Part shown: positions 15,951 through 47,651 of the stretch, in pieces
Layout of the letters: each line of letters opens with the position of its first letter
Position numbering within the stretch: the first letter of the stretch is position 1
Origin: Adineta ricciae
Taxonomy: Eukaryota > Rotifera > Eurotatoria > Adinetida > Adinetidae
Length of the DNA: 64,000 nt
Assembly: GCA_905250025.1 (NCBI GenBank)
Contig: CAJNOJ010000329.1
Span: 1 to 64,000, forward strand
Direction of reading: 5' to 3'
Position numbers and translations under genes: made by a program
Notes under the pieces: model-generated
The model's input: only the letters and a program-made list of their open reading frames with translations
Database searches by the model: none
What the model was told of the DNA's origin: nothing

Positions 15951-15990
15951 CCGGGCAAACTCTACCAAAACCTCATTCATACAATCCAAC

Positions 15991-16455: not shown

Positions 16456-16707
16456 ACTATTTTTCTCTGTTAACCTTGAATAAAAATAAATATTTATCTT
16501 CATCTGTTTCATGTCGAAAAATGTCATGTTTTCTAACGATTCTATAAAATATCACAACTAATAATTGTCATTTGGTTACATACAATTTTTCAAAATAAAT
16601 ACTATTTTAACCATTATTTTCCTTTCTTGAACAATAAATCACCAAGTAATTCATTGATACATCAATGAAGTCTATGCTGATCCAGTGATGTCTTTTTTTT
16701 TCTAGTA

Positions 16708-19700: not shown

Positions 19701-19869
19701 ATGCGAACATTCTCACCCTCTTCTTCAGCAATAGCAATGATGTTGCATATGAACTATCGAAATATGTATTCAAATGAATTAGTTATCTCCAACAAATACG
19801 TTGTGGCTATGCTCAATGCAACAACTAGTTCGCCATATCATTATGGTGATCATTTAAATGTAGGCAAAG
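16708..19869 (+). pseudogene. LDLRA/EGF receptor-type gene, copy 1, truncated and with stops
   Basis: Plus-strand fragments encode LDL-receptor class A modules (CLDWRDICDGEIDCLDGSDE near 17340-17410; DGYLDCLDGSDEN near 17912-17945; FRCLNGTC near 18525). EGF-like ends follow (FVCLCPSSSYGSNCQ near 18990-19035; ICWCSTNFFGN near 19580). The longest piece is 17293-17868 (191 aa). Its TAA stop is CAA in copy 2, and two further in-frame stops just after (tga, tga at about 17900-17913) are sense codons there. The 7TM region present downstream of copy 2 is absent, because the copy ends at the n at 19870. Ancestrally this was a secreted-domain plus 7TM receptor. This copy cannot make it. Confidence 0.7.
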
Positions 19870-24224: not shown

Positions 24225-24264
24225 CCGGGCAAACTCTACCAAAACCTCATTCATACAATCCAAC

Positions 24265-24990: not shown

Positions 24991-25194
24991 GTGCAATTGA
25001 CTTCAAGTCGGCGTAGTGGACACACACTATTCAACCTCGAGTTTCTAGTTAGTCGTCAATCAAATTCAATGTATCATGACTGTTATCTTGTTCGAAAAGA
25101 GAATCTCAAACCGATCACCCCTGATGAAGGCGAAGGGGATGATTATATGCGTTTTTGTATTCGAACGTCCGAAAAACAAAGACTCGCGAAAAAA
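24991..25194 (+). pseudogene. 5' fragment of LDLRA/EGF/7TM gene copy 2, cut by the insertion
   Basis: Aligns with 16708-16912 (MQLTSSRRSGHTLFNLEF-like reading). Homology is lost at gactcgcgaaaaaag (about 25194), where the Helentron 3' end starts. The rest of this gene lies at 49512-53093. Confidence 0.6.
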
Positions 25195-25240
25195 GCTTTC
25201 AGCATAATCCCTTTCGGGATTAAAAATGTGAAACACGATC
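25195..25240 (-). repeat. Helentron 3' terminus: hairpin and internal arm of the asymmetric inverted repeat
   Basis: Perfect 6-bp stem (25206-25211 with 25216-25221) and a 4-nt loop. The 14-bp arm at 25227-25240 pairs with GATCGTGTTTCACA at 46482-46495 and 49498-49511, and with one mismatch at 39046-39059. Confidence 0.75.
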
Positions 25241-25580
25241 GATCTGTTACAACCATGATAATAATGATTTGTACGTAATATTTTTGTTTGATATTGTTGA
25301 TTGACCAATGCAGAAACATTCTATAACGGTGTTGTTTGAAAGAAGTCATTTATTTTGAATGCAGAACGTTTGATTTATTGAAACTTGAGAGGGTGAAGAC
25401 CGATGCTTGGTTCGAGATTAAAAAACGATTCAACTGTTTATTCAATTGATCGAAAAGAAATTTCTGTTTCGAGTATGATATTTTATTATCGAGAAAAAAC
25501 GAAATGATTATTTAAGGAGATTAGAGAAGCTCGAAAAATGTTTCGACGAATAATTGTTTTAGATTTGAATATTATGTATT
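25241..25580. other. subterminal Helentron sequence without a gene
   Basis: AT-rich DNA between the 3' terminus and the RPA-like gene. No ORF of note. Confidence 0.5.
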
Positions 25581-26787
25581 TTAAATATTATGTATTTCAA
25601 TATTTATGACAGTTTTATTTTTTGAGTTGTACTTAATTGAAAGGCTAATTGATGATAATGTTAATAAAACTGATTCATTTTCCAACAAATCTTCTTCTGA
25701 TAAATGAGTATGATTGCATTGTTCTAATAGTTGTTTGATTTTTTGTTTTTCAATGATCAATTCCACCGATTTATCATCAGATGTATTGATAGTTAATTTC
25801 AGTCGATTTTCTTGGGCATCGTTTTTCATGATATATCTCGTCTTACATCGGTTACATTTCAGAGTTCTTTCAGTTATTTCAACCGATTTAGAATAACATT
25901 TAGAACAGACGGGCTGTTGTTCAATTAATCCGATTGAAACGATGCTGCCAAGTACATTTATATCATGATCAAATTCAACAATTTCAGACGTTTGCACATC
26001 ACCTATGTCATTGATTTCTTCAAAGCTTAGAATATGGGAAACAAATATGAATTCATAATAATGGTAAAACAACAGGAAAAAGCATATTTACGTTGTACTC
26101 GAAATTGTTGTTACAGATGCTTCATTATTAAAAAATTTCACCTTGGCTAGCTTAATTTTATAGCTGGAATTCTGTTTAATTAAATGGAATTGATCTTGCC
26201 ATATATTCATGCAGATGGAGGTTGTTTTGTCGGCAATAACGATTGCTCTCTTCAATTTCAAAACTCGTTTGTCTGCATTATTGAAAATGACATTTTCATC
26301 CTAAATTATATGGCACATATTTGCTTCACAAGCAAGATTAGATAGAACTCACAGGACCGATTTCAAGAATTTTTGCGAGGAAACTAATATATTCACCATC
26401 ACATTTACTTTCAATTTGTTCTAGTTGAATAAGTTCTAAACAATTTGGTTTAATTGATAATTGTTTTGCGGCGACAGTTGTTTCGTGACTTGCTGTATAG
26501 CTGTCATCAGTATTGAATTTCAGTTTATTTACTTCACAACCATCTTGCTTATTATAGAAGTCGACTAGTTTTTCATGTAATGTACATTTGCGTTTACACG
26601 ATAAGTATTTGGTAATTCTGATGATATTCTGATCTGACTGACATAATAATGCAGTCCAAAATGAAGTTGTTCTTTGATTTTGTTTGTGTGTCAGATTGCT
26701 GATGGCTACAACAACACCTTCGATTGTTACATTAGATGTGTTGTTGATACTGATCGAATTTTCATGGCTCGTATTTGTGCGTTTCAT
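25581..26787 (-). CDS. RPA1-like single-strand DNA-binding protein (OB fold plus C4 zinc ribbon)
   Basis: Three exons read through two GT/AG introns: 26787 to about 26353, about 26300 to about 26093, and about 26027 to 25581. Starts MKRTNTSHENSISINNTSN. The first exon has an OB-like strand pattern (VTIEGVVVAISN). The middle exon has 'ADKTTSICMNIWQDQFHLI', the usual shape of an RPA OB fold ('D.T..I.V.LW...'). The last exon carries CSKC...CNRC, a four-Cys zinc ribbon like that in the C-terminal DNA-binding domain of RPA1, and ends in a second beta-rich stretch. Helitron-class elements are known to carry RPA-like genes, which fits a job of coating the displaced strand during rolling-circle transfer. 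It is divergent to the OTU gene, about 157 bp away. Confidence 0.7.
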
Positions 26788-26944
26788 TTGTGAAGTTCTT
26801 TTATCGCAAAAATTTCGAAAGAATTGAAAAGAATTATTTGAATCAAATGATATGAAAATGAGTTAAGAAATTTGCGCGATAAATATTTCGATTTTCGAAT
26901 ACAAATTTATATGAATTTGACAGTAAAAAAGGAATTTTTTTTCT

Positions 26945-28019
26945 ATGTTTTTGCATTGGAAGGATGTATTCAAGACAATTTATCTAGAAGAATGTCTTTT
27001 TTATGAGTACGGATTGCCTATGATTTATATTAGTCCAACTGATCGATCGTTCGAAAGAGCATTATGTAGATGTTTGTTCCATAATGAAGGTGAAATAGAT
27101 TCAATCACATCTACGTTAAATGGAGAAAAGAAATCGTCAGCTGGACAAAGTTATGTATGAAATATTTGTAAATTAATAGATTGATATTTGTAGATTATTT
27201 GAAAACGATTTTGATTCATTTCCATTGTGCATTATGTGAGTTGTTCATGAATATGGAATTACGATTTGTATACATGAAGACAAGTCAAAAAATATTTATC
27301 AAAATAATGACGTGTCTCCAGTTATTCATTTGATTAGAGCAAAGTTGAATGACGCTTCGGTTTTATTTTTACCTACTCAAAAGCTGCATGATATAAATAA
27401 AATGAATCATAATCGGACGGTATGTACTCAAAATTCGCATAATCGCGGTATCACGACAATAATTATTCTTTTTCATTTATCTTATACTGTTTAGTATGTC
27501 CAGCAAGATAAGAATGAAGATAATCCTATTGCATACCAGAAATCAAACTGCATGCTAGCGTTTAAATCAAGATGTTCTTTGCTGATGATTGTCAAATCTG
27601 TAGAGTCTGATGGAAATTGTTATTTTAGAGCATTAAGGAATCAAATATGTGACTCAGAAGATGCACACATTGTGTTACGTGCTCTTATTATTGGTCTCAT
27701 AAATAATAACGGTGAAAAATTTCAACGAATTATTGGTTATAATTATTACTCGTCATGGGAAAATTTCATTTACGAACTGTGTGAAAATAGAATATTCGTT
27801 GATGGTATCGTAATAGTGGCTTCTGCAATCTTCATACAACGAGCAATTACTATTTATCATTATGAACAACGTCCATTGCTTTTCAAACCATCTATTTTCA
27901 TTTCAAATGATAATCAAATACATCTTGCTTACGATTCGAAAAAGTTTCATTACAATAGTTTGTGGTCAACTGAAAGAGAAAAACTACAAATTGACGAATC
28001 AGAATGTAGAATTGCTTAG
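26945..28019 (+). CDS. OTU-family cysteine protease (predicted deubiquitinase)
   Basis: The clear domain is 27552-28019. D20-G-N-C23 (ESDGNCYFRAL) is the OTU catalytic Asp/Cys block, and H133 in KFHYNSLW is the matching catalytic His, so the triad is present. Upstream pieces in the same orientation look like a second, degenerate OTU module. At 26945-27160 'SPTDRSFERALCRCLF' has the place of D-G-N-C-F-R-A-L but no Cys. At about 27235-27390 'VHEYGITICIHEDKSKNIYQ' and 'VIHLIRAKLN' resemble the later part of the fold. I could not trace one clean spliced frame through all pieces, so the gene start is uncertain. OTU domains are known passengers of Helentrons. Confidence 0.65.
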
Positions 28020-29025
28020 ATATTATGTAATAAGTTAACAACATAAACTGATAGTAGACTATTTAAATACAACGTCATTAAGTAGAACAATGTGTAAGAT
28101 CAATCCCAAAAAGTTGTCGTCTAGAGAATGTTTCTTTTTTGAAAAGGCGAACGCTTACTGATCTTATGAAGAAAAGAGTTTTCAATAGATTGTTAGAGAA
28201 TGGTTTTTCTCAATTGAATATGTGTACTTTCACCATTGATGAAGGGAGAGAGTTCCTCCGTTTGGTTTGAATGTGTATTGATAAGAGGTAATAGAATTGG
28301 TATAGAATTTTAGTCTACAGTGACTACTGAAGGTGTCATTCAATAAAAAACGTGAAAAGAAGAATTCAGATGAATCTTTTTTTATCAATACATATAACCG
28401 GCTTAAAGAGAATAAACGAGAGAGCACTTCTATCTTTAGTTTGTTTTTTTGTCGTTGAAAGCCGATGCAATCGGTACAGATTTGAATTCGCTATTCATCA
28501 GTGGCCGTTTTATTTAAGCAACAAGTTTTGTGAAGAATTTCTGTAGAGTGTTTTTTTCTTCATCAATACATGTAGATAAGTTGTAGAAAATAATTGAAAA
28601 AGCATTCATCCCTTCAGCTTTTTTTCTACCACTAAGAATTGACGAAATTCATACAGAATTGAATTTTCCATCAAACTAATGTATTTCTTAATATTTGCTT
28701 TTAGATTTCATGAAATGCCGCTGATATTGTGATTTGGCATAGAACTGTTTAGTTTCGTTCACGAACGATGAATAAGAAGAATAACTAAACAAGGTTTTTG
28801 TTTTTACTTTTAGATTTTGTCTACGAGCTTAATTGTTCAATCTCTCTGTATTTTTTCGCATAAAACTACAGAAGAATTTTTTCAGCAATCTGGTTTTCTT
28901 TTCTTAAAGATCTTATTAGTTGAGTACTCATGAGCGTGTATTTATTGACGACATCGTGAACTGAATGAAATTGTTCTTTTTGTGAATGTTCAAAGATTAG
29001 TCTTTATTTTTCTATATGGATGAAA
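28020..29025. other. Helentron interior without a recognised gene
   Basis: About 1 kb between the convergent OTU (+) and nucleotidyltransferase-like (-) genes. Overlapping short ORFs at 28230-28546 on both strands have no recognisable content. Confidence 0.5.
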
Positions 29026-30491
29026 TTAATTCAAACGATAGTATTCACAAAATTGTTTTTGAATAGAGAAATGGTCACAATTATCTCCAAAATGTCGGCG
29101 TCGAAAACGATAAATTCGTTCTGGTTGAGTTTCTTTACAATCTTCAATAGGAGTAGAGAGAAATGTATTTATATCAAACTGTTTGGGGTATAATATGTTG
29201 AAACCTCGTTGTTCATATTTAAGTAATCGTACTACTCTTCTCATGTATTGTGATGATGATGTTGGCATATCATAACAAGTCGCATGACCTGAATTTAATG
29301 CTTGTAAGCAAGCAAATGAAATCGTTACTTGTTTAGAATTAAATGCTGCTGCACAAACATCGAGATCAAATGAATGAATGATTTGAGAGACATTTGATGC
29401 AGTATGTGTTGGACGAATTAGTTGCATGATGATTAATGGTGAAAAGGTTTTGCTCTGAAAAATGTCTTTAATTGTTATTTTTTGAAACAATTCAAATTGA
29501 ACTAATCGATTTGACCATATAGTTCTTCTCTTTACAAAATATTTATTTTGTAATCGGACTTCTAATTGGTTCTAGAAAATATGAAAAGAAAAATTTCTCT
29601 AATGGAATTTCTGTAAACGGATTCGTTCTGTTTTATTCTTCAGGTTTTTGCGAATAGGTGCTCGGATAATTTGAATCAAAGTCTTCATTTCTTTTTCCAG
29701 ATATGCCGAATACGAATAGAAAAGAGATTTCTTACCACAGATTGTTGAAATAATTTTGAACCTTTTTTCAGAAAAAATAAATCGACATCCGATCCTTTTT
29801 GTAATGATGTTTGTTTTAATAATGATAATGTAACCGAACCACCTGCAATTACAAATAAATTCCAGTCAATGTCGGTTTCCCAGAATTTATAGTTATATCG
29901 AGCGTTAAAGTTTTCTCGAAATTGTTCGAAATTTAGAACAAGTTTTGGTGATATTTGATTATCGCCCCATACTGAAAATAAAGCACGTTCATCAACTGTC
30001 AATTCTCGTGATTGAAGAAGATCTAGTTAGAAACGTAGATTAATATATAAATTTCGAAAAACGATTTCGTTACAAGAGTAGTTGAATATTTCAAGAGTTG
30101 GATATGTTGGTGAATAGCAAAATGGTGTAAATGACCATAAACGTGCGTACAAGCAAAATACGCTTGTGCAAAAGTATTTCAATGATTTCTCAATTATATT
30201 TAGTGTGAATGGTCCATAAACAAATGTATTCCATTTATTCGTTGATAAAACAACAGCAATTTTATCATCCAATAAAAAATAAGGCGATTTGGACATACGA
30301 ATGAGTGACTCGATTTCACTTGTCAAAGAGATATTTGGTCGATTGTGAAGCAACTTTATCAAATGGTAATCAGTGATATCAAGATAATAATACGTTGCAA
30401 GTGTAAAATGAAAGAGATCTTTTCCACTCATTTCTTCACTGATTTGTTTGATTATATTGGTTGGTAAAATGATATCGTTTGATGCTTCCAT
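29026..30491 (-). CDS. predicted nucleotidyltransferase-fold protein with F-box-like N-terminus
   Basis: Exons read on the minus strand. The first is from 30491 (MEASNDIILPTNIIKQISEE) to about 30076. The second, from about 30020 to 29737, is joined across a 56-bp gtaacg...ctag intron that removes an in-frame TAA. Two or more further exons run to 29026. Residues about 8-45 resemble an F-box (LPTNIIKQIS...DLFHFTLA). The second exon has 'FVIAGGSVTLSLL' followed 13-15 residues later by 'GSDVDLFFL', the hG[GS]...DhDh signature of the polymerase-beta-like nucleotidyltransferase fold. The last exon has 'SFDLDVCAAAF', which fits the third acidic position, and 'RRVVRLLKYEQRGFNI', a conserved C-terminal block in this uncharacterised family. 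The metal-binding acids look present. Substrate unknown. This is an unusual passenger for a rolling-circle element. Confidence 0.55.
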
Positions 30492-30927
30492 ATTGAAATT
30501 TCAAAACAGATAGATTGTGAAAGAAACTGTTGACTTAGAAAGAAAGGAAATGTTAGTGAATTAGATTGAGCGCTTCTATTATTAGATTAGAGCAAAAACG
30601 ATTTTTCTTTCGAAGATATTGAAATCATACGTTACGAACAAATATGTCAAGATTCAAATGATGCATTTAACTGATAGCTGATGATATGTTAGACAGATTA
30701 TTGATTTTTAGTTTGCTTGATTACTTCCGTTTCTAGTGGAAGTTATGTTTGAATGCAACAAGGATTTATTTTTAATGATTTATACTGATCGTTCTTTTGT
30801 GTGTAATTTATAGTGAGAAAATTGATTTTGTGCAAACACTAGTGCGCGTAGTTTTATCATTATTCACTGTGGTTACATATTCTATAGATACGTAGAACAA
30901 AAACGAGTTTCTTTCTACGAATCAACA
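30492..30927. promoter_or_regulatory. divergent intergenic region (shared promoter candidate)
   Basis: 436 bp between the minus-strand nucleotidyltransferase-like gene and the plus-strand SGNH gene. No ORF. A bidirectional promoter is inferred from the gene arrangement only. Confidence 0.3.
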
Positions 30928-31557
30928 ATGAAATTTCTAATCATTGCTGACAGTCATGGAAAAAACATGGCTTCGTATTTATCAAAACTACCATATACAG
31001 TAATTATTAAGTCAATCCCTGGTTTAAAGTTCGTGGATAATTATCAAAAGAATCTATCATTATTACATATGCTTTTTTCTCATGAATTGCAAACAGCATT
31101 GGAAGATACAGATTCAGTTCTGTTTTTAATTGGTACAAATTCAATTCGATGTTTTACATCATTCGAAATAATTAATCAAATTCAAGAGATAGTTTTCTTT
31201 CTTAAACATAGCTATGTTCAACTGAATCGTTCTGGATCTATTACAATATGTGCGACAATGCCTTGTTTGAAAAGCACCCGAAAGTTTCGAACTGAAAAAC
31301 AATTAATGAATAATATTGAGTGTTACAATGAACAATTGAATCGATTATCTTATGAAAAGAATTTCAAAGTATTAAATTTGCCGATTGACGTTTATCAACT
31401 TTCGTGTGATAAGATTCATGTACATTTTCGATACCAATACCGAATTTTTAATTGTATTATTGACCATTTCAATCTCATGAACGATCGAATTTCATCACGT
31501 AAAACAGAAGATAAGGAAAATTCGCATAAATATTATAAGATCAATCGAAGAGTATGA
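30928..31557 (+). CDS. SGNH/GDSL-type hydrolase (predicted esterase)
   Basis: Intact 209-residue single-exon ORF. The family blocks are in order: block I 'IADSHGKNM' with the nucleophile Ser9, block III 'LIGTNSIR' with the oxyanion Asn71, and block V 'CDKIHVHFR' with Asp161 and His164 (DxxH). All catalytic residues expected of an SGNH hydrolase are there. There is no signal peptide, so the enzyme would be intracellular, unlike secreted lipases. Esterase/SGNH domains occur in several retroelement families, and GDSL-type enzymes are reported as cargo in giant bdelloid telomeric elements. Here one sits inside a rolling-circle element, convergent with the Rep-helicase gene (111 bp between stops). 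Confidence 0.75.
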   Translation: MKFLIIADSHGKNMASYLSKLPYTVIIKSIPGLKFVDNYQKNLSLLHMLFSHELQTALEDTDSVLFLIGTNSIRCFTSFEIINQIQEIVFFLKHSYVQLNRSGSITICATMPCLKSTRKFRTEKQLMNNIECYNEQLNRLSYEKNFKVLNLPIDVYQLSCDKIHVHFRYQYRIFNCIIDHFNLMNDRISSRKTEDKENSHKYYKINRRV

Positions 31558-31667
31558 GGAATTTGTGCAATGCGAATAGAATTTGTTTGAGAATAAAATA
31601 CGTCAATCGTTGTTTTTGTTTCGTGCGATAGTTTCAGCAATAGACGTATCAGATACGCATGTATGAT

Positions 31668-32309
31668 TTATTGATTTCCTTGATTTACAATCAAAACTTC
31701 AAGATCAGCTTTTGATTGTGGAAAAGGCCAAAGTCTTGTTTGTATATTATTCGCACAGTTGCCATCTTCTTCTTCATCGAGATTTCGTAGTATTGTCACA
31801 TAAACATTGGCACCTATATCAATAAGTTCTTGAAGATAATTACGTAAATTATCAATATGAATACGTTCATGATTCATTGGGTTTTTTGAGTCTAATTTGA
31901 AAAAATAATCTTTTGTTAACTCAAAACGACGTAAACAGTAATAATGATAATCTTGTTGTATAATCAATGCTTGAATATTTGTAATATTGGACGCAATCAA
32001 TGTTTGTAGTGGGGATATGTTTTCTTCAAATCGACGAATTTGTATAAGATCGACATTAAAAATATTGAGAAGAGCAGCTTTGAGTACATCAATATTATAT
32101 TCTCCCGTATTTTCATGATAATATTCAGTTACAAGTACAGATTCTTGATGAGAATATATTTGTTCAAAGTTTGCTAGGTTTTGAGCCACTTCTTTTAAAT
32201 ATGTGTCACTGAATAGATCTAATCTTTGTGATACTGCACGAAGCATATGGCGTCCACAATAAAGACTCTCTTGTTTTTCACAAATAATAATATCTTCAGG
32301 CTTTTTCAA
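31668..32309 (-). other. Josephin (ataxin-3-type) deubiquitinase domain
   Basis: Numbered from the Met at 32309: 'EKQESLYCGRH' gives Gln13 (oxyanion) and Cys18 (nucleophile) with the same five-residue spacing as known Josephins. 'EYNIDVLKAALL' matches the 'G.fsiqVi..AL' helix. 'DYHYYCLRRF' gives His122, and 'YFFKLDSKNP' gives Asp140 as third member in place of the usual Asn. About 170 residues long, the usual length. Predicted to cleave ubiquitin chains, though the Asn-to-Asp change may alter activity. Confidence 0.7.
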
Positions 32310-35300
32310 AGAGGTAGACGTAGAGAATGTTGAAGCTTCATATTTCGGACGTTTGGAATCGATTTTAATCAGTGTGGTTGTACTAGTTTTTGATGATACT
32401 ACGGATGATGTTTCAGCTTGATCAAATGGACGAGAAAGACACCAATCAACATATCTCTATAGAAATCTATAGAATTTCGACAAATAAGAAGAAAACTTAT
32501 TTAACCTCAGATCGTAAATAATGTTCGATTTTTATGGGATATTCTTGCTCAATTTTTTCAAGGCGAATCATCTCGTTAAGTGCAGATTTAGATACCTAGA
32601 CGATTCGTAGATGTTCAGGAGCTTCTAATGGAAATATAATTTACTTTGAAAGATTTTCGGTCGTATGCTAAGATGATAATATCAGTTAATTTTCTCGTGC
32701 GGCTCAAAATTGTATAGAACATTCCTGGCTTCCAGTTTTTTCCGGTTAGATCAACAACTAACTTATTATAAGTCATACATTGTGAACGATGAACTGTTAT
32801 TGCATAACCAAGACTAAGTGGCAGTTGTCTTCTTGTCATCCAAATTCCATTTTTGTCTTTAAAACTGACTTCCTCTGTTAGCATTTTGTAAATGGAACCA
32901 TCTTCTAATTCTTTTGACAAGAAAAAACAGTTAGGTTTAAATGGATTGAATATTCCATTTTCTGTTACCGAGTTCTACGTATTTTGGCAATGTAACAGTA
33001 ATTGCTCTATCCAGATTTGGAAATACACATGTATTTGATATTGGCAATACGATTTCTTGGCTATCTTCCCAGATGATATCTTTTACAATTGCTTCGGTAC
33101 CGTTTACCATTTGCCCATCAAAATCAATATTTCGCCTACAAATGACTCGTGCACCAATACAAAGTGGAAGTTGTCGGAACATTGATCCACATTCATTTTC
33201 ATCATCTGATGGTTTCAATTGAATTCGATATTCTTTTTTGCTCGCATGAATGGGATTAAAAAGGGATGTTCTAGCCATACCAATTTTCTAAATAAATTAG
33301 CTCACAGGTAATATTTTATCTAATTTGCTAACTAACGTCGATTGACTGGATTATCCAAATAGGTTTTTTCAATTTCATCGCAGTTTCTTTCAATTTCATC
33401 GAATTACGTTCGTTTGTTTTAGATCGTACGCTATATGCATATATCGTATCACTGAAGTCAGAAGAGTTCAACTCTTCCAATCGATCTTTGTAATAGATTA
33501 AATTATCTTCTTTTCGTATACTTCTAGATTTAATGGCCACTTCATCTTGTTCAGTGTATTGACCTGAACATTTTATGGAACATGCATTATTTAAATGAAG
33601 AGAACAATCAAGTTACCTAATCTCATTCGACATAGAATCTCAAAAAATTCTCGATCTTCTCCTTGTCGCATATTAATATTGAAATTAATTGGTCTAAACA
33701 GATCAGTCCAAAGGGAAAAAGTTTCAGTAGATGGTCGCCAGAAAATTTGTTTAGCAGCAACTGGTTCACATTGAGCTAAATCGCCAAATAATAATATTGG
33801 AATGTTTCCAAAGTACGTATCACTTTTATCCGATACTTGAAATATTTCATTTAGACGTTTGTTGACTTTTTGGAAAAGATTATATGAAACAAGAGAGATT
33901 TCATCAATGATTATCAAAATTAATTCACCAAGTCTATTTCGAAGTGAATGTAGCTTAAATGCTGGTGCATTGTTTGGTGTTGTTGTATTATCAGGACGCT
34001 AATAACAAGTCATACAGTTACTTTGAAGTTGGAAATAGAATTGAAAAGTTTACCATGCTTAGAGCAGTATGAATAGTCCATCCATGGATATTTAGAGCAG
34101 CTTTTCCAGTATGAGCCATCTTTAGCAATCCTTTTCTTCTTCTTGGACGATTTCGAATAGCTGATTCACTTATGCAAAAATCAGTTAGCATTTGTTCGAT
34201 GATACTGATTGCATAAGATTTTCCGGAACCAGCTAAACCATTCACAACGATATGAAATGGAAGCGGTTTAGATATGTTAGGAACTCGAAGCTTCCTCTGT
34301 TCATATTGCATAACTGCAGCCAGATATTGTTTTAAGAAATCAGCAAGAAAGCGCTGTTGATCATTTGCTGATGCTAATAATTCTTGTGTTCGTGTGCATG
34401 GGAAATTGATTTTTAGATCTTGATAGGTATCTAAGTCTTCATCATTTTGATCGTTGATACTTTCTCGTGTAGCATTTTTGTTCAAATCTTTTTTATCAAG
34501 TTCAGTATTTGCAATAGAACTATCTATAGTATTTTGGTTCATACCATCTTCTGAATCATCATCATCTCCTGTAAATATAAACGACGTTTTTGGTTGAATA
34601 AAAAAATCATGATTGTTTAAATCGCATAGAAGTTCGAGTGAATTAAGCATTTGGACTTGATAAGCTCCAGGTAATCTACCAAATTGTTCACTTAATTCAG
34701 TTCGATGTTTCAGTAAGACTTGATGAATAGCTTTTACATCGTTTTCTACGAAAAGGATATGTAACGTTGATGTGAAACTCTCGTAATGAATTTCAAAATA
34801 TACCCAGTTTGCTATTGAGAAATTCTTCAATTGGATTCCTGTAAGAAATTCCGATGCAAAGCATAGAATACATAGCTAACATAGAGTTATCATATCTACA
34901 AATGAAGCTAATGCAAGTTGGCTCTTTGTGTTGAATTAATACTGTTCCACATGAAAGAACAATACGAGGAAGTAAAGCGGATGTTTTAAGGAGAGCTGGC
35001 TGTTCGAAATTAGTACGCCACAGAGGATTTTGTACTAGTGGTTCTTCTAAAGCGTCCTGTAGTTTAGCGGATGAAGATCGATCATAATCAAACCAAGTTA
35101 AAAATTCAAATAACGTCATTTGATCTATAACTGCTGGAGTAGATGGCCGCTTTACATATTTGTGCGTTAAAGATTCAATAAAATCATCTGTAGTATTAAC
35201 TTCAATTCTTCCTCGTTTGAGAATTCTTTCCTCCTCCCAAGGCAAAGAAATATACAAACTTTTGTATCTCATTGAAGAATGATATAGTGGGATTCCTGAA

Positions 35301-38056
35301 ATATAACACGACGGTTGTAAGAGTAAAATAGTTGAAAGTACCTAATACGGTCCAAGATGCTTCAACTTTTCCAACTTGACGATGTGACAAGATGGCATTT
35401 CCTGTTTTTAAAAGAACACTTTTCGCTTCTGTCAAACTTTCACAAGTACAGTTTGACAATTGATAGACTAAGTCTTTTTCCATATGAGCATTTTTTGCAA
35501 CATAAGAAAATAAATATTCTGCTGATGCCCATGGGTCAGTAATAACTTGAATATCATGATTACATCGAAATGTTTTCAAAAGGTTCATATTATAGGGAAT
35601 AATGCGCCGTGACTATAATGCATAGAAATTGAATAAGATGTGAAGACAAAAGTATATACCTCTTCAGTTAATCGCTTTATAATTATATCTCTATCGCCTC
35701 TTGTTAATATACGAGCTTCTTTGTAACTGCGGAAATGAGTCACCATAGATAATTGACAAGGACTTCCAAAACGGCAGCCTAACCGTTCAAAAAATTCCTT
35801 TTTATCTTTCAATATTTGTAGAAGATCTGGATCTTTATTTGGATCAACTTGTTGATATATTTCGTTTTCATGTAAATAATTTTTATTTACATCTTTGAGT
35901 TGATTTGCTTTGGTTGATTTTGGCTCTTGTTGATCTTTAAATTTTCGCCCACGACGAATACGAACTTTTATATTCCCTATTATCGACAGTAGTCATATTA
36001 GTTTTTTGGACGTACAATGCATAATTACTAAACCTGGTGCACATGTAAATGTATGAAAATGCCACTGTTTCTTTTTTACAAGTACATGACCTTCAGGGTC
36101 TGTTTGTTTATCAGGCAAAGCTGTACTGAGAAATTTATCAATAAAATCAATAATGCTTTGACGCCCTTCGGCTGTATCTATAGATGGAAAATTTTCGAGC
36201 CAGAGCAGAGTATGTAAATGCGGCAGACCACCTCGTTGAAATTCAATTTTGAAAAAGTAATTCGTTACAATATAATCAATGAAAAATGGATGGTTTTTAT
36301 CGCTAACAAACTTTTCAAATGCTAACATTCGCCGATGACACATACGTGCTACAAGTGCACTATTCTCATTAACTAATTGTAAATAATCGTCATTCGAAAG
36401 ACTATCAATGGCATCATATTTTGGATTTTCCACATGACCGAAACGAACAGGATCAATATGCGTTAAAAATTCGACATCATCTTGCAAATTGATACTTAAA
36501 AAGATATTAGGTTTTGATAAGGTTGCATACATTGCACGTAGCATTTTTCTAGGTGTCGACCAGAATGCAGCTGTACCTCGTATTGCTCTTCCTATTGCTA
36601 AAATAGAGATAAATGTTTTTATTTTATTTTATATTGAAAATAGTTTTGTATAAAAAGGTGAGCGCATGCAGATGAAAGTCTCCATCACATGGACAGTTTG
36701 CTTACATGGATATATATTATAACATAAACGATCCTTTTTAAATTGTTGTTTGGCATGATAATTGACAGCCGTACATAAATCGTCTCGCTGTATTAAATTC
36801 ATAGCGCGGAATACCCAAATGGAATCGGATTGCCATCTTTTGTCAACAGACATTAATCGTAATTTAGAGTAATCACGAAGCTTTAATGGAATGTGTCTTT
36901 TCATGTCGAGTTCGCCGCCTTGACCTGTTGGATAAAGCCATGGAAATGTACATTCCTCCATACCGGGCTGAATATTCCATACAGGATTTTCACCAACTTT
37001 TAAAGTACGACTTCATAAAATATAAAACATGGCGTTGCGAATTCTTTTTTGTTTGATTCTTACCATGGTCCTAGAAAGTCTTCGTTTGAGTCTAGGATTA
37101 TTGGTGAAGACATTGTAGAATTATTGTAAGCATATGAATCAATAATTCTGATAGGAGCTAAGTCTTCTTTTCTACATTGAAACATCTCTTCAATGCTTCG
37201 TAATGGTAAAACTTGTTTATTGGTGTATGCAATATGGTTTTGAATCAGATATAGTATCGCATTGAGAATTTGAGTAGCACTGACAGAATAACGTACTGTT
37301 GATCTGATTTCATTATGTTTTTCTGAGGGTTTTTGTTGAATGACAGCCATAAATTCATAACATTTTGGGAATGGTAGAAGATCACCTATGTTATCAAGGG
37401 CATCAGTTTGACAGTGTACTACTTGACCTTTCATTGATGATGAACGACCACGTATTATGAGTATACTCATATAACAATGCATTAATGCAACGGCACGTTG
37501 TTCAAGGAACCCAAGTTTTAAACATTCAGGTACAAGAGGGATTTGTATATTATTTTGTATACGAGAATGCGGACAGAATGGAATATTTTCTTTTGGGCTG
37601 AAATCATAACAAGACAAACAAATTATCTCACCAACGATGCAATCATGATAGCTTTCATGTTGTTTTTTCGCTAATTTCATATGACACATTGGATGTTCAG
37701 ACATGCAACATATGCAAGAAGACCATATTTGACGGATTTCATATAAATACCTAACATTGGTATTCAATATTGACAACAATATATTTCATGAATTTATCAC
37801 ACCTTTCACTAAGAAAATCGTGTACAATACGTTCATCTTGTATTTCTTCATTGAATTCTTCTTCACAGCTGATTAAGCGAAAAGAACGGTCATTTTCTAC
37901 AATTTGATTTTTTCTTATTTGGCGTGATGGTTTTTTCTGATTTGCTAGTTTTGAATTATTTTTGCGAATTTTAGATGGCTTTTTGTTACGGTTTGGGCGT
38001 CTTTTACGAGATGGCCTTGATCCCCATTTTGAACTGTTAGGTCGTAATCTAGCCAT
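31668..38056 (-). CDS. Helentron transposase: zinc fingers, HUH Rep, PIF1 helicase and C-terminal Josephin domain, multi-exon
   Basis: Start ATG 38056 (MARLRPNSSKWGSRPSRKRR, a basic leader). A Cys/His cluster (CICCMSEHPMC, about 37700) follows after a 50-bp intron. The Rep HUH motif is PHLH at 36212-36220 ('RGGLPHLHTLLW'), and the paired Tyr motif is AEYLFSYVAKN near 35500-35516. The PIF1 helicase has Walker A GLAGSGKS at about 34216-34236, Walker B 'IIIDEIS' at about 33905, 'FGDLAQCEP' near 33775 and 'ITVHRSQ' near 32800. A 52-bp intron then joins helicase exon 'AYDRKSFK' to 'VSKSALNEMIRL'. After another intron the frame runs into a Josephin domain: QESLYC with Cys at 32256-32258, His in YHYYCL, and Asp in FFKLDS where ataxin-3-like enzymes have Asn. 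Most exon joins are short GT/AG introns. I did not verify every one. The fusion to Josephin is inferred from continuous splicing. Confidence 0.7.
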
Positions 38057-38353
38057 GAAAGATAATTAATGTGTGGATTCAATATTTCATGTGTAACAAT
38101 TCTTATATTATGTGTACTGAATTTATGCAATTCTTGGTTTAATTTTTAATAGAGTTCTACGATAACCACACGTTATTCAGCCTTTTTTTTATTGTTTTCA
38201 GAATGCAATTTGAGACAAATATTGTCGATATGTTTTCCAAACGAAATTAAATAGAATACAAGCGCTTTCTGAACGAATTATTAAATCATAAAACAGTTTT
38301 TTTCCATTCATTTTGATTTTGCATTTATTCGACAATCGAAGAAGTTTATTAAC
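38057..38353. promoter_or_regulatory. divergent region between transposase and basic-protein ORF
   Basis: 297 bp with no ORF of note, well conserved in copy B (45501-45805). A bidirectional promoter is inferred from arrangement only. Confidence 0.3.
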
Positions 38354-38730
38354 TATGAAGAAAACGCAGAATAGGCAGTCATTTTTAATTGCACATGCGC
38401 GTAGAATGCGGCAATTTCGGAAGAGACAACAACGGGAAAATGTTAAAGAATACCGACGGCGATTGAATGAAGAAAAAAGGAAGTATCGTTTACGAATTCG
38501 TACAGAAATATTATCAAATGCTGCAACATCCACAAGAACTCAATCAATACTTAAAACACGTACAAAGACCAAGCAACGTGTACGTCGTTTTTGATTAAAC
38601 GAAGCACATGATCAAAAAGTTTTACGAAGAGAAAAAGATCGTCTTTATCAAAAATTAAAACGGCGACAGAAACGGTCAATTAACACGGTTGACGATCAAT
38701 TCAATATCGTCAATATCTGTCCGTAGTCGA
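38354..38730 (+). pseudogene. small highly basic coiled-coil protein of the Helentron, copy A
   Basis: ATG 38354 opens an 80-codon frame very rich in Arg/Lys (ARRMRQFRKRQQRENVKEYR), like a bZIP basic region or a nucleic-acid-binding helix. A TGA ends it at about 38592-38594. The same frame then continues open to a TAG at about 38729 (RREKDRLYQKLKRRQKRS). In copy B the TGA position is CGA, so the ancestral protein was longer, about 124 residues. It could still make the short form here. Role unknown. Its divergent position beside the transposase suggests an accessory DNA-binding protein. Confidence 0.45.
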
Positions 38731-39061
38731 ATTGTGTGAATGAAGGTCCAGAAATAGTAGTGTTTCTCAATTTGCAGTCGGATGTGAACCATAAATATGT
38801 TTAAATTCAATTTTTCCACAACATTTATCTGATTTCATAATTGTGGAGTAAAGGCAAACGATATCTTGCTTATGTTTATTGCTCTGTGAGGGCGAAGAGC
38901 GTCTTTCTGATGTTGTGAGAGTGTATAAGGTGTAATTGAGTTTGTTTGTAACGTTTGTGATGGGATTTTCAGAACGTCTGTAACGTCTGTGGGAAAGGGG
39001 GTGGGTCCAAATTTCTGCCACTACACACTTCAACACTCTCTTTCAGATAGTGTTTCACAAA
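38731..39061 (-). repeat. Helentron 5' terminal region, copy A
   Basis: About 300 bp shared with copy B (46150-46495), ending in the motif gtccaaatttctgcc...ctttcagatagtgtttcacaa. A G-rich patch (gggaaagggggtggg, about 38992-39006) lies just inside. Downstream sequence differs in all three copies, which fixes the element edge at about 39059-39063. Confidence 0.7.
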
Positions 39062-39599
39062 AAATTATTAGAATTATCTGATAGCAAGACAGAGCATTTA
39101 CCTGGTCTATTACGTTTTGTACCAGGTATGCCTGTCATTTTAATGCAAAATATTGCTACTGAATTGGGCCTTATCAATGGTATTAATGGAATATTTCGAC
39201 AATTAGTATATCATGAAGATTCGGTAACAACAGGAAATTTATCAGAAATGTTCCCGAACAATACACAATATATGCATTAATTGAGATTGTTAAATCGAAG
39301 ATAGAATGCAAACTTCAAGATCTCCAACCAAAACTTATACCAATTCCACTTATAGAACAAACATTTCAAGTTGACGTTGCTGATCTTATTCCAAAAGATA
39401 AGAAACCAAAATCAAATCAAAAGACAATTCTATCAATTAAACGATCTGCATTACCACTTGTACCTGCTTATTGTATTACAACACATAAAAGTCAAGGTCA
39501 AACATTGAGCAAAGTGGTTATTGATTTAAAATTACCAAATGAAACTGATGATATTGCAGCAGTCTACGTACCACTATCTCGTGTAAAACGTTTGGCCGA
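39062..39599 (+). pseudogene. C-terminal fragment of another PIF1-type helicase
   Basis: 39062-39280 reads 'LPGLLRFVPGMPVILMQN' and 'LGLINGINGIF', the region after motif III in PIF1 helicases. After a frameshift near 39270 the next frame continues 'LIEIVKSKIECKLQDLQPKL' to 'AYCITTHKSQGQTLSKVVID', with the motif V/VI THKSQGQT at about 39480-39510. It is on the opposite strand from the Helentron helicase and not closely similar to it (THKSQGQT against VHRSQCMT), so it comes from a different element family. It is cut at the n at 39600. Confidence 0.65.
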
Positions 39600-39600: not shown

Positions 39601-42600
39601 TCAGTTACAAGTACAGATTCTTGATGAGAATATATTTGTTCAAAGTTTGCTAGGTTTTGAGCCACTTCTTTTAAATATGTGTCACTGAATAGATCTAATC
39701 TTTGTGATACTGCACGAAGCACATGGCGTCCACAATAAAGACTCTCTTGTTTTTCACAAATAATAATATCTTCAGGCTTTTTGAAAGATGTAGTCGTAGA
39801 GAATGTTGAAGTTTCATATTTCGGACATTTAGAATCGATTTTAATTAATGTTGTTGCACTAGTTTTTACTGATACTATGGATGATGTTTCAGCTTTGTGA
39901 AATGAACGAGAAAGACACCAATCGACATATCTCTATAGAAATCTATAGAATTTCGACAAATAAGAAGAAAACTTATTAAACCTCAGATCGTAAATAATGT
40001 TCGATTTTTATGGGATATTTTTGCTCAATTTTTCAAGGCGTATCATTTCATTAAGTGCAGATTTAGATACCTAGACGATTCATAGATGTTCAGTAAGTTC
40101 TAGTGGAAATATAATTTACTTTGAGAGATTTTCGATTGTATGCTAAGATAATAATATCAGTTAATTTTCTCGTGCGACTCAAAATTGATAGAACATTCCT
40201 GACTTCCAGTTTTTCCCGGTTAGATCGACAACTAGCTTATTATAGGTCATGCATTGTGAACGATGAATTGTTATTGCATAACCAAGACTAAGTGGAAGTT
40301 GTCTTCTTGTCATCCAAATTCCATTTCTATCTTTAAAACTGACCTCCTCTGTTAGCATTTTGTAAATAGAATCATTTTCTAATTCTTTTCAGAAAAACAG
40401 TTAGGTTTAAATGAATTTAATGTTTGATTTTATGTTACCGAGTTCTACGTATTTCGGCAATGTAACAGTAATTGCTCTATCCAGATTTGTAAATACACAT
40501 GTATTTGATATTGGTAATACGATTTCTTGCCTATCTTCCTAGACGATATCTTTTACAATTGCTTCGGTACCGTTTACCATTTGCTCATCAAAATCAATAT
40601 TTCGCCTACAAATGACTCGTGCACCAATACAAAGTGGAAGTTGTCGGAACATTGATCCACATTCACTTTCATCATCTGATGGTTTCAATTGAATTCGACA
40701 TTCTTTTTTGCTTGCATGAATGGGATTAAAAAAGGATGTTCTAGCCATACCAATTTTCTAAATAAATTAGCTCACAGGTAATATTTTATCTAATTTGCTA
40801 ACTAACGTCGACTGATTGGATTATCCAAATAGGTTTTTTCAATTTCATCGAATTCCGTTCGTTTGGTTTAGATCGTACGCTAGATGCATATATCGCATCA
40901 ATGAACTCCGAAGAGTGCAACTCTTCCAATCGATTTTTGTAATAGATTACATTATCTTCTTTTCGTATACTTCTAGATTTAATGGTCGCTTCATCTTGTT
41001 CAGTATTTTGACCTGAACATTTTATGGGACATGCATTATTTAAATGAAGAGAACAATCAAGTTACCTAATCTTATTCGACATAGAATCTCAAAAGATTTT
41101 CGATCTTCTCCTTGTCGCATATTAACATTGAAATTAATTGGTCTAAATAGATCAGCCCAAAGGGGAAAAGTTTCAGTAGATAGTCGCCAGAAAATTTGTT
41201 TAGCAGCAACTGGTTCACATTAAGCCATATCGCCAAATGATAATATTGGAGTGTTTCCAAAGTACGTATCGCTTTCATCCGATACTCGAAATATTTCATT
41301 TAGACGTTTGTTGACTTTTTGAAAAAGATTATATGAAACAAGAGAGATTTCATCAATGATTATCAAAATTAAATCACCAAGTCTATTTCGATGTGAATGC
41401 ATCTTAAATGATGGTGCATTGTTCGGTGTTGTTCTATTATCAGGACGCTAATAACAAGTCATACAGTTACTTTGAAGTTCGAAATAGATTTGGAAAGTTT
41501 ACCGTGCCTAGAGCAGTATGAATAGTCCATCCATAAATATTTAGAGCAGCTTTTCCAGTATGAGCGATCTTTAGCAACCCTTTTCTTCTTCTTCTTGGAC
41601 GATTTCGAATAGCTGATTCACTTATGCAAAAATCAGTTAGCATTTGTTCAATGATACTGATTGCATAAGATTTTCCGGAACCAGCTAAAACCATTCACGA
41701 CGGTATGAAATGGAAGTGATTTAGATATATTAGGAACTCGAAGCTTCCTCTGTTCATATTGCATAGTTGCAGCCAGATATTGTTTTAAGAAATTAGCAAG
41801 AAAGCGTTGTTGACCATTCGCTGATGCTAATAATTCTTGTATTCGTATGCATGGAAGATTGATTTTTACGTCTTGATTGCTATATAAGTCGTCGTCATTC
41901 TCATTGTTGATACTTTCTCGTGTAGCATTTTTGTTCAAATCTTTTTTATAAAGTTCAGTATTTGCAATAGAAGTATGTGTAGTATTTTCATTGATATCAT
42001 CTTCTGATTCTTCATCATCACTCTTGTAAATATAAATGATGTTTTTGGTTGAATAAAAAAGTCATGATTATTTAAATCGCATAGAAGTTCGAGTGCGTTA
42101 AGCATTTGGACTTGATAGGCTCCCGGTAATTTACCGAATTGTTCAGTTAACTTAGTTCGATATTTCAATAAGACTTGATGAATAGCTTTTACATCGTTTT
42201 CTACGAAAAGGTTATGTAACGTTGATATGGAACTCTCGTCTACAATTTCAAAATGTACCTAGTTTGTTATTGAGAAATTCTTGAACTGGCTCCCGATAAG
42301 AAATTCCAATGCAAAGAATAGAATACATAGCTAACATAGAATTATCATATCTGCAAGTAAAGCTAGCACAAGTTGGCTCTTTGTGTTTGAATTAATACTG
42401 TTCCACATGAAAGAACAATACGAGGCAGTAAAGCAGAAGTTTTAAGTGGAGGTGGTTGTTCGAAATTATTACGCCAAAGAGGATTTGGTACAAGTGGTTC
42501 TTGTAAAGCGTCCTGTACTTTAGGTGATGAATATCGATCATAATCAAACCAAGTTAAAAATTCAAGTAACGTCATTGATCTATAACTGATGGAGTAGATG

Positions 42601-45496
42601 GTCGCTTTACATATTTGTGCGTTAAAGATTCAATAAAATCATCTGTACTATTAATTTCAATTCTTCCTCGTTTGAAAATTCTTTCCTCCTCCCAAGGCAA
42701 GGAAATGTACAAACTTTTGTATCTCATTGAGGAATGATATAGTGGGATTCCTGGAATATAGCACGAAGGTTGTAAAAGTAAAATAGTTGAAAGTACCTAA
42801 TACGGTCCAAGATGCTTCAACTTTTCCAACTTGACGATGTGACAATATGGCATTTCCTGTTTTTAAAAGAACTTTTTTAGCTTCTGTCAAAATTTCACAA
42901 GTACAGTTTGACAATTGATAGACTAAGTCTTTTTCCATCTGAGCATTCTTTGCAACGTAAGATAATAAATATTCTGCTGATTCCCATGGGTCAGTAATAA
43001 CTTGAATATAATGATTACATCGAAATGTTTTCAAAAGGTTCATATTATAGGGAATAATTCGACGTGACTATAATGCGTAGAAATTGAATAAGAAGTGAAA
43101 ACGAAAGTATATACTTCTTCAGTTAATCGCTATATAACTATATATCTATCGCCTCTTGTTAATATACGAGCTTATTTGTAACTACGGAAATGAGTTCCCG
43201 TAGCTAATTCACAAGGACTTCCAAAACGACAAGCTAATCGTTCAAAAAATTCATTTTTATCTTTCAATAATTGTAGAAGACCTGGATCTTTGTTTGGATC
43301 AACTTGTTCGTATACTTCATTTTCGTGTAAATAATTTTTATTCATATCTTTGAGTTGATTTCCTTCGGTTGATTTTGCTTCTTGTTCATCTTTAAATTTT
43401 CGTCCACGATGAATACGAACTTTTATATTCTCTATTATTGGTAGTAATCATATTAGATTTTACACGTAAAATGCATAATTACTAAACCTGGTGCACATGT
43501 AAATGTATGAAAATGCCATTATTTCTTTTTTACAAGTACATGGCGTTCAGGATCTGTTTCTTTATCTGGTAAAGCTGTACTAAGAAATTTATCAATAAAT
43601 TCAACAATGCTTTGACGTCCGTCGGGTGTGTCAACGGATGGAAAATTTTCGAGCCAGAGTAGAGTATGTAAATGCGGCAGACCACCTCGTTGAAATTCAA
43701 TTTTGAAAAAGTAATTTGTTACAATAGAATCAATGCAAAATGGATGATTTTTATCGCTAACAAATTTTTCAAATGCCAACGTTCGCCGATGACACATACG
43801 TGCTACAAATGCACTATTCTCATTAACTAATTGTAAATAATCGTCATTCGAAAGACTATCAATGGCATCATATTTTGGATTTTCGACATGACCGAAACGA
43901 ACACGATCAATATGCGTTAAAAATTCGACATCACCTTGCAAATTGATATTTAAAAAGATATTAGGCTTTGATAAGGTTGCATACATTGCACGTAGCATTT
44001 TTCTAGGTGTCGACCAGAATGCAGCTGTACCTCGTATTGCTCTTCCTATTGCTAAAATAGAGATAAATGCTTTTATTTTATTTGATATTGAAAATAGTTT
44101 TGTATAAAAAGGTGAGCGGATGGAGGTTGAAAGTCTACATCACATGAACAGTTTCCTTACATGGATATATATTATAACATAAACGTTCGTTTTTAAATTG
44201 TTGTTTGGCATGATAATTGACAACCGTACATAAATCGTCTCGCTGTATTAAATTCATAGCGCGGAATACCCAAATGGAATCGGATTGCCATCTTTTGTCA
44301 ACAGACATTAATCGTAATTTATAATAATCACGAAGCTTTAATGGAATGGGTCTTTTCATGTCAAGTTCGCCACCTTGACCTGTTGAATAAAGCCATGGAA
44401 ATGTACATTCTTCCATACCGGGTTGAATATTTCACACAGGGTTTTCATCAACTTTTAAAGTACGACTTCATAAAATATAAAACACGTTGTTGCGAATTTC
44501 TTTTGTTTGATTCTTACCATGGCCATAGAAAATCTTCTTTTGAGTCTAGGATTATTGGTGAAGATGTTGTGGAATTATTATAAGCATATGAATCAATAAT
44601 TTTGATAGGAGCTAAATCTTCTTTTCTACATTGAAATATTTCTTCAATACTTCGTAATGGTAAAACTCGTTTATTGCTGTATCCAATATGATTTTGAATC
44701 AGATATATTATCGCATTGAGAATTTGAGTAGCACTGACAGAATAACGTACTATTGATCTGATTTCATTGTGTTTTTCTGAGGGCTTTTGTTGAATGACAG
44801 CCATAAATTCACAACATTTTGGGAATGGTAAAAGATCAGCTATGTTATCAAGGGCATCAATTTGACAGTGTTCTACTTGACCTTTCATTGGTGATGAACG
44901 GTCACGTATTATGAGTATACTCATGTAACAATGCATTAATGCAACAGCACATTGTTCAAGGAAGCCAAGTTTTAAACATTCAGGTACAAGGGAGATTTGC
45001 ATATTATTTTGTATAGGAGAATGCGGACAGAATGGAATATTTTCTTTTGAGCTGAAATCATAACAAGACAAACAAATTATCTCACCAACGATGCAATCAT
45101 GATGGCATTCATGTTGTTTTTTCGCTAATTTCATGTTACACAGTGGATGTTCAGACATGCAACATATGCAAGAAGACCATATTTGACGAACTTCATATAA
45201 ATACCTAACATTGGTATTCAATATTGACAACAATATATTTCATGAATTTATCACACCTTTCGCTAAGAAAATCGTGCACAATACGTTCATCTTGTATTTC
45301 TTCATTGAATTCTTCTTCACAGCTGATTAAGCGAAGAAAACCCTCATTTTGTACAATGTTTGTTTCTTATTTGGCGTGATGGTTTTTTCCGATTTGCTAG
45401 TTTTGAATTATTTTTGCGAATTTTAGATGGCTTTTTGTTACGGTTTGGGCGTCTTTTACGAGATGGTCTTGATCCCTATTTTGAACTGTTAGGTCG
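39601..45496 (-). pseudogene. Helentron transposase copy B, broken
   Basis: The start codon is lost (ATA where copy A has ATG, about 45494-45496). A stop falls inside the helicase motif 'FGDMA*CEP' near 41222. A 1-base insertion follows Walker A at about 41690, so GSGKS is in one frame and the preceding part in another. Several other exon frames are shifted. The HUH, Tyr and Walker motifs remain recognisable. It cannot give a full-length protein. Confidence 0.8.
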
Positions 45497-45805
45497 TAAT
45501 CTAGCTATGAAAGATAATTAATGTTTGGATTCAATATTTCATGTGTAACAATTCTTATATTGTGTGTACTGAATTTATGTAATTCTTGATTTAATTTTTA
45601 ATAGATTTCTACGATAACCATATGTTATTCAGCCTTTTTTTTATTGTTTTCAGAATGCAATTTGAGACAAATATCGTCGATCTGTTTTCCAAATGAAATT
45701 AAATAGAATATAAGCGCTTTCTGAACGAATTATTAGATCATAAAACAGTTTTTTTCATTCATTTTGATTTTGGCTTTATTCGACAATCGAAGAAGTTTAT
45801 TAACT

Positions 45806-47629: not shown

Positions 47630-47651
47630 CACTGCTAACGGAATGGGTATC

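Follow-up and report, generated by a model that had tools for sequence, protein, structure and literature searches.

The window analyzed here is a 64,000-nucleotide stretch of Adineta ricciae DNA (assembly GCA_905250025.1, contig CAJNOJ010000329.1, positions 1 to 64,000 of the forward strand), which lies on contig C329 of the 130-Mb A. ricciae assembly covered by the genome searches. At positions 25191 to 39062, the window contains a Helitron2/Helentron-like rolling-circle element, a 13.9-kb unit. Genes predicted within this unit encode a Rep-helicase transposase that ends in a Josephin domain (RepHel-Josephin), a probable RPA-like protein, an OTU cysteine protease, a nucleotidyltransferase (NTase)-like protein, and an SGNH hydrolase, together with a small basic open reading frame (ORF) (Table 1).

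Table 1. Features of the element and of the surrounding DNA, in window coordinates
Feature	Position	Strand	Details
RepHel-Josephin transposase	31668..38056	-	1890 amino acids (aa) and 13 introns predicted; model free of stops and frameshifts
Helitron_like_N (HUH Rep) match	36203..36604	-	Pfam E 1e-10; H-L-H motif
PIF1-type helicase region of RepHel (introns included)	32618..34875	-	Pfam E 1e-11
Josephin domain, C terminus of RepHel	31797..32273	-	Q, C, H, D invariant in 3 copies
Probable RPA-like single-stranded DNA (ssDNA)-binding protein	25584..26787	-	362 aa, 2 predicted introns, CxxC/CxxC zinc ribbon
OTU cysteine protease	27552..28019 (first Met; open frame from 27495)	+	Pfam PF02338
NTase-like protein	29026..30491	-	416 aa, 2 predicted introns; AGGSV..SDVDLFF..SFDLDVC
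SGNH/GDSL-type hydrolase	30928..31557	+	209 aa, single exon, opposite to RepHel
Small basic (arginine/lysine-rich) ORF	38355..38594	+	Divergent from RepHel
Left terminus (3' end in RepHel sense)	25191..25250		AAAAGCTTTCAGC; 15 distinct left ends aligned
Hairpin AATCCCTTTCGGGATT in left terminus	25206-25221		Position read from sequence
Inner repeat GTGAAACACGATC in left terminus	25228-25240		37 bases inside left end
Right terminus (5' end in RepHel sense)	38945..39062		...GATAGTGTTTCACAAAA; 12 right ends aligned
Repeat arm of right terminus	39046-39058		Sequence positions
Paralogous empty site	14377..19856	+	14377-16905 = 22673-25188; 16908-19856 = 49511-51718 in four gapped pieces
Part of helicase (PIF1) gene of another Helitron family, not of the element	39063..39599	+	Single N follows at 39600
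Additional half copy in decay, spanning Josephin start through right end	39601..46498	-	92.6% identical to 32125-39062
Third right end	49454..49514		After 100-N gap 49281-49380; host right flank adjoins directly

On the predicted exon structure, the RepHel transposase continues in frame into the Josephin domain. Its 13 predicted GT-AG introns are 39 to 58 nucleotides in length, except for one of 108 nucleotides. The two-Tyr motif of RepHel (EYLFSYV) lies further downstream in the protein than the Helitron_like_N match, and the helicase part had 19 PDB matches, including Helraiser (7lcc). The Josephin domain (PF02099; 31668 to 32456, minus strand) scored 63.7 bits against a Pfam cut-off of 26 (E = 2e-17), and the Gln, Cys, and His of the family, with an Asp where Asn or Asp is expected, were invariant in all three aligned copies (Q62, C67, H171, and D189 in exon numbering). 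A predicted intron (32505 to 32457) separates the exon VSKSALNEM... from the exon RYVDWC.... The helicase-Josephin junction, read by eye, was in phase with GT-AG introns in three copies (the window, C531, and C931), in each of which three exons come in succession: one ending ..SFK, a short one that closes the helicase, and the Josephin exon. The reading of Josephin as an independent gene was rejected, since its exon lacks an ATG ahead of the catalytic Cys and is predicted to be spliced in phase to the helicase.

The same fusion was present among database proteins. Protein P0001 was 100% identical to RepHel-Josephin over residues 1500 to 1890. All 10 matches from the helicase-Josephin database search were named Adineta or Rotaria; 8 carried PIF1 and Josephin labels in one protein, and 4 of these 8 carried the Helitron_like_N label too. 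One of the eight, P0004, is probably the C531 copy. A rescan of P0001, P0005, and P0008 placed Helitron_like_N, PIF1, and Josephin all above the Pfam cut-offs, and no endonuclease family was detected in these three at E values up to 0.1. Adineta and Rotaria are bdelloid rotifers of different orders, and the fusion was found in both. Helicase and Josephin distances were correlated over the eight proteins (r = 0.79; Mantel P = 0.0008).

The OTU frame (27495 to 28019, plus strand) scored 24.9 bits against a Pfam cut-off of 23.3 (E = 3e-5) and matched OTUD5 (E = 3.5e-9); its D-G-x-C motif, here DGNC, and its His were invariant in three copies. In the NTase-like protein, AGGS was present in 17 of 17 aligned homologues and S-D-x-D-L in 90% or more. 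The hG[GS]...DxD...D motif was also found, and the core of the structure model has a pol-beta-superfamily fold; by motif and fold, the protein belongs to the pol-beta nucleotidyltransferase superfamily, as a putative transferase. Compared by sequence to PDB, the NTase alignment returned one chance-level match (myocilin, E = 0.48); NCBIfam searches of the 17 members gave single-member matches only, the best of them to a glycyl radical enzyme model (E = 0.001); and of 33 pattern matches in viral contigs, none was confirmed as a relative. Many of the homologues carry a precomputed Pfam label, PF26128, that could not be resolved. The SGNH hydrolase has the S, G, N, and H residue blocks of SGNH/GDSL enzymes, with G32, N71, D161, and H164 invariant in four sequences and S9 in the three that have the N terminus. 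Its structure model resembles GDSL folds, PAF acetylhydrolases among them, and its alignment had no match by sequence in PDB.

The product of 25584 to 26787 is a probable RPA-like protein, as read from its CxxC/CxxC pattern, invariant in four copies, and from weak matches. Family matches were below threshold (Ssb-like OB, E = 0.015; zf-UDP, E = 0.05), and all three PDB matches were ssDNA-binding proteins, SSB chains, at weak E values (0.65 to 0.79). Searched with the alignment of the second exon, PDB gave RNA polymerase RPB12 at E = 1.6 and, at E = 4.1, cellulose synthase. The RPA-like alignment omits the C781 row, which holds a stop. For the small basic ORF, the C531 copy gave a match at 37% identity (E = 3e-5), and Pfam gave no family. 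These results agree with the initial annotation of the locus, made by reading the sequence, for the OTU protease (D-G-N-C and His), the SGNH hydrolase (S/N/D/H), the NTase signature, HUH Rep, and PIF1, and the profile searches that it proposed detected OTU, Josephin, Helitron_like_N, and PIF1. Its Josephin with Q/C/H was recovered as a domain and lost as a cargo gene of its own. For its RPA-like protein, the CxxC/CxxC pattern of a putative zinc ribbon was invariant, and the OB fold drew sub-threshold matches only. The F-box-like stretch that it saw at the start of the NTase-like protein is a weak hint, with F-box matches in 2 of 17 homologues (best E = 0.17).

Both ends of the element recur across the genome, with counts that are lower bounds. 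For the left end, 39 of 40 scored rows, the window included, began at query base 1; the right end closes with ...GTGTTTCACAAAA, stopping at 39062. The 15 distinct left ends gave the consensus AAAAGCTTTCAGC..AATCCC..GGGATT..ATGTGAAACACGATC and the 12 right ends ..GATCGTGTTTCACAAAA, with variation present in each. The repeat GTGAAACACGATC at the left end is found inverted near the right tip, as the terminal GAT(C/A)GTGTTTCAC, so that the inverted repeats are asymmetric (subterminal), and the left-end palindrome, which forms the hairpin, is placed outside the inner repeat arm. Since seven short copies (376 to 813 bp) carry both ends, the two move as a pair. Two target sites allowed a judgment: the host site is an A run on the plus strand of the window, and so is the site in the helicase gene, as seen in uninterrupted relatives of that gene. 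At the one empty site, the target is an A5 run in which no duplication is resolvable.

HUH Rep and PIF1 reside in one protein, and no target-site duplication was seen at that one site, as in the Helitron superfamily. Canonical Helitrons (Helitron1) have 5'-TC and CTRR-3' ends and insert between A and T; the ends here, TTTTGTG... and ...CTTTT in RepHel sense, are of another kind. Asymmetric inverted repeats and a hairpin near the 3' end are features of Helentron/Helitron2 elements, and by anatomy the element works like one of these. Helitron2 elements have palindromes at both ends and a single RepHel ORF lacking an endonuclease; here a palindrome was seen at the left end, and further ORFs accompany RepHel. 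Josephin occupies the position of the apurinic/apyrimidinic (AP) endonuclease that marks the C terminus of a Helentron RepHel, and by this criterion the element is not a Helentron.

Helentrons, as described in PMC4067079, combine a RepHel bearing a C-terminal AP endonuclease with OTU and RPA genes and use T-rich targets without duplication, and their proteins have been reported from a rotifer among other animals. The element shares with them a RepHel with Rep and helicase, a T-rich target without duplication, and extra RPA and OTU genes, but its RepHel ends in Josephin. NTase and SGNH are not among the genes described in the available part of PMC4067079, which also shows hypothetical proteins. 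The VTD Helitrons of zebrafish and other animals, 121 of which also carry an OTU domain, encode VTDs with demonstrated ubiquitin activity (PMC9741609). They too have deubiquitinase domains, of two classes where OTU accompanies VTD, but the extra class there is VTD, of the herpes tegument type, accompanied by an AP endonuclease. Josephin receives a single mention in the available text of PMC9741609, within a list of cellular deubiquitinase classes.

SGNH hydrolase genes also have precedents. The texim genes, related to PAF acetylhydrolases, occur with fish Helitrons (PMC4021074); as here, an SGNH hydrolase gene adjoins a Helitron, but texim genes have several introns and lie beside Helitron code or hold a Helitron in an intron, whereas the present gene is a single exon among element genes. 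GDSL ORFs are accessory genes of bdelloid long terminal repeat (LTR) retrotransposons and of Terminons, which can hold Rep proteins too (PMC5408684, PMC6431247); those elements differ in being built on reverse transcriptase, and the SGNH likeness is by description only. In the part available of a bdelloid transposon survey (PMC7943196), rolling-circle elements appear only as totals and by model class. Already known, then, are Helentrons carrying OTU and RPA, Helitrons with a pair of deubiquitinase classes, and SGNH genes beside Helitrons; of the cargo set initially proposed as new, the two classes have a precedent in VTD plus OTU (PMC9741609) and SGNH has one in texim (PMC4021074). No report of Josephin or of this NTase in a Helitron was found in a narrow literature search that took in neither subscription papers nor preprints.

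Recurrence was assessed by exon-level tblastn and by searching the genome with four proteins. Nine loci besides the window held at least two of the genes together, and on these alignments the co-occurrence exceeds chance. C531 holds the right end, the small ORF, RepHel-Josephin, SGNH, and NTase; C829 holds the left end, RPA-like, OTU, and NTase; C455 the left end, RPA-like, and SGNH; C794 the left end, RPA-like, and OTU; and C167, at two places near 187 and 200 kb, NTase and SGNH with stops. Gene order and relative orientation at these six matched the window, with per-exon protein identities to it of 29 to 84%. The other three loci were C931 (NTase and RepHel-Josephin), C565 (NTase and Josephin), and C167 at 9.5 to 29.4 kb (two RepHel stretches, two Josephin stretches, and one NTase). 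C931, and probably also C565 and the latter C167 region, form a more distant subfamily with NTase upstream. In C931 and, probably, C167:9500-29400, RepHel-Josephin has the NTase gene upstream of Rep on the same strand, and the stretches examined yielded neither ends nor any of the other genes.

Single genes only were present at C328 (two places), C781, C375, and C477. Distant single matches were found in C501 (NTase); in C692, C309, and C648 (SGNH, 31 to 33%); and in C546 and, twice, C247 (OTU, 27 to 29%). These seven and C477 may be host genes or other elements. Database proteins from two Rotaria species join Josephin and NTase (P0023, by Pfam; P0026, by reading of the sequence), so the two genes adjoin in Rotaria too. 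A further protein, P0034 (JGI source; longest contig, 16,449 bases), shared 64% identity with the SGNH hydrolase, and an environmental relative of the element may lie on that contig.

By sequence, the close subfamily encodes a probable RPA-like protein, OTU, NTase-like, and SGNH proteins beside RepHel-Josephin, between conserved asymmetric ends with a hairpin. The genes of the cargo set proposed as new in the initial annotation recur in diverged copies, with Josephin as part of the transposase and not as cargo. That annotation would have been abandoned had other long copies lacked these genes or had the cargo proved to be host DNA between unrelated ends; neither held for the gene set, and because diverged loci repeat the set, host DNA between unrelated ends was rejected for it. 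For the precise joining of the genes in the window copy, the host-DNA reading is still tenable.

The reading preferred here, to which moderate confidence is given, is that of a bdelloid Helitron2/Helentron-type family in which the fused RepHel-Josephin deubiquitinates in cis and OTU in trans, with NTase and SGNH as auxiliary proteins. Rep would nick at the TTTTGTG end, the helicase would peel off a single strand that the RPA-like protein would coat, replication would halt at the hairpin end, and the freed strand would be joined to an A/T run with no duplication of the target. Acting in cis, the fused Josephin would clear the transposase, or chromatin or replication proteins located at the nick, of ubiquitin and thereby spare the complex degradation or unloading; OTU would do likewise in trans. 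The most likely targets of the auxiliary proteins would be nucleic-acid ends (NTase) and membranes or acylated substrates (SGNH). A deubiquitination role of Josephin and OTU is inferred, as is the shielding of transposition proteins against host ubiquitination; Helitrons that carry active deubiquitinases of a different class (PMC9741609) speak for the preferred reading.

Several observations weigh against this reading. Gene functions are predicted here from sequence and structure models. None of the nine other loci holds the full gene set, so the recurrence check proposed at the outset returned, in this assembly, subsets and no complete set between the same ends. C455 lacks OTU and NTase between its RPA-like and SGNH genes, the C167 pieces near 187 and 200 kb carry stops, and C931 has no SGNH, OTU, or RPA-like gene in the 9.2 kb examined. 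Josephin identity was 38 to 65% and helicase identity 61 to 90%, with Josephin evolving faster in 27 of 28 pairs (94% and 92% in the remaining pair), so its constraint is weaker than that of the helicase. The sole solved Josephin found by sequence search matched weakly (E = 0.05), and the Asp here aligns to the Asn of the third catalytic position in ataxin-3.

The boundaries of the window copy bear on the same question. The host locus is duplicated in the window, one copy (14377 to 19856) lacking the element and the other split by insertion, and because this empty site pairs 25189 with 49515, the insertion at the host site spans 25190 to 49514. A single clean insertion of 25195 to 39061, as initially annotated, was rejected for this site, since its flanks disagree, and with it the single set of ends for the insertion as assembled; the two ends themselves are recurrent and asymmetric. 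Right ends occur within 25190 to 49514 at 39062, 46498, and 49514, along with other repeats, and the half copy begins at the single N (39600) and carries stops. Single N's were also observed at 19870 and 21223; all three join repeated stretches and are likely scaffold joins, so that local order there is uncertain. Given the empty site, the extra right ends, the foreign PIF1 fragment, and the N joins, the 13.9-kb unit may be composite or chimeric. The interval 25190 to 49514 may have arisen in one event running from the outermost right end through 25191, by side-by-side insertions, or by an assembly join, with none of the three preferred.

An assembly chimera is the strongest competing explanation and is a real possibility, although it falls short of probable. 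The left part would come from the copy in the host gene (left end 25191, right end 49514) and the right part from another copy, inserted into the helicase gene of a Helitron (right flank, 39063). In that case the gene set would be correct for the family, and its presence in any single element would be conjectural. It is consistent with a host left flank, a flank of another Helitron at 39063, a host right flank only after 49514, and N's at 39600 (one) and 49281 to 49380 (100). However, no N lies between 21224 and 39599, and the window order is followed both in C829, which links the left end to RPA-like, OTU, and NTase, and in C531, which links the right end to RepHel-Josephin, SGNH, and NTase. 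A composite insertion starting at 49514 and reading through to 25191 would give an equal picture without error.

Deubiquitinases acting at a distance on host defense, such as silencing or immune factors, and not in cis on the transposase, are considered rather unlikely. The second, separate OTU in the element fits such action, and several roles for Helitron and herpesvirus deubiquitinases are discussed in PMC9741609. A local target is favored because Josephin is covalently fused to RepHel, in the three copies with a junction read and in eight database proteins.

Improbable, too, is that the cargo genes and Josephin exons are host genes captured by read-through and useless to the element. Helitrons do capture host DNA (PMC6431247), C455 has no OTU and NTase at the expected place, other pieces are degenerate, and gene activity is predicted from sequence. 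Against this stand the shared order and orientation at six of nine loci across 29 to 84% identity, the fusion in two bdelloid orders, the two Rotaria proteins joining Josephin and NTase, and ratios of nonsynonymous to synonymous substitution rates (dN/dS) of <1 for most cargo exons between diverged copies. Ratios were computed on tblastn-aligned stretches only, skipping codons with stops or N, omitting pairs of <40 codons, and excluding the self-comparison of the window as well as a row that belongs to a different helicase (39436 to 39594); many dS values were saturated. The dN/dS values were 0.30 for Josephin (C531), 0.45 for OTU (C794), 0.19 to 0.22 for RPA-like exons (C794), and, with saturated dS, 0.17 (C531) and 0.11 (C829) for NTase exons; the corresponding ratio of proportions (pN/pS) for SGNH was 0.42 (C455). 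Weak or contrary rows were those for a half-copy helicase exon (1.03), SGNH in C531 (pN/pS, 0.60; 2 stops), NTase in C565 (pN/pS, 0.69 and 0.79), and NTase in the C167 pieces (dN/dS, 0.67; with stops). That Josephin is now a ubiquitin-binding or structural tail and not a protease would suit its weaker conservation and the Asp in place of the ataxin-3 Asn but has little probability, with Q, C, H, and D invariant in the three aligned copies.

With cis-acting Josephin retained as the preferred reading, the fused domain suggests, by its position in the sequence, a further deubiquitinase case in Helitrons, in the place of the Helentron endonuclease. According to an earlier suggestion (PMC9741609), deubiquitination benefits Helitrons and herpesviruses alike and can come from different enzyme classes; Josephin within the transposase of two bdelloid orders would be a further case, one in which the likely target, the transposase complex, is covalently attached. 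This suggests that such rolling-circle elements bring their own tools against the host protein-tagging system and makes RepHel-Josephin a testable system for host use of ubiquitin against mobile DNA, and the conserved NTase family may point to an unknown step in rolling-circle transposition. A fuller joint reading is tentative: a self-deubiquitinating transposase would carry Josephin where Helentrons have their endonuclease, acting in cis during strand transfer; the F-box-like NTase and the separate OTU would complete a ubiquitin-control kit on the element's own replication complex; and a CCA-adding or TENT-like NTase would tail element RNA or the free strand end. If so, Josephin would be a further deubiquitinase class recruited by Helitrons, after OTU and VTD.

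Other features of the surrounding DNA were noted. ORFs of the duplicated host locus (14377 to 19856; 22673 to 25188 plus 49511 to 51718) presumably encode a protein with low-density lipoprotein (LDL)-receptor class A repeats, as judged by motif. The half copy ends against a repeat family (46499 to 47630) found at at least a dozen other places (73 to 84% identity). An intact methyltransferase ORF of 308 aa (48148 to 49074, minus strand; Methyltransf_11, E = 5e-21) sits between inverted 30-nucleotide arms (47844 to 47873 and 49227 to 49256). Terminal pieces of this unit recur close together genome-wide as short units, and it is possibly a terminal inverted repeat transposon carrying a methyltransferase.

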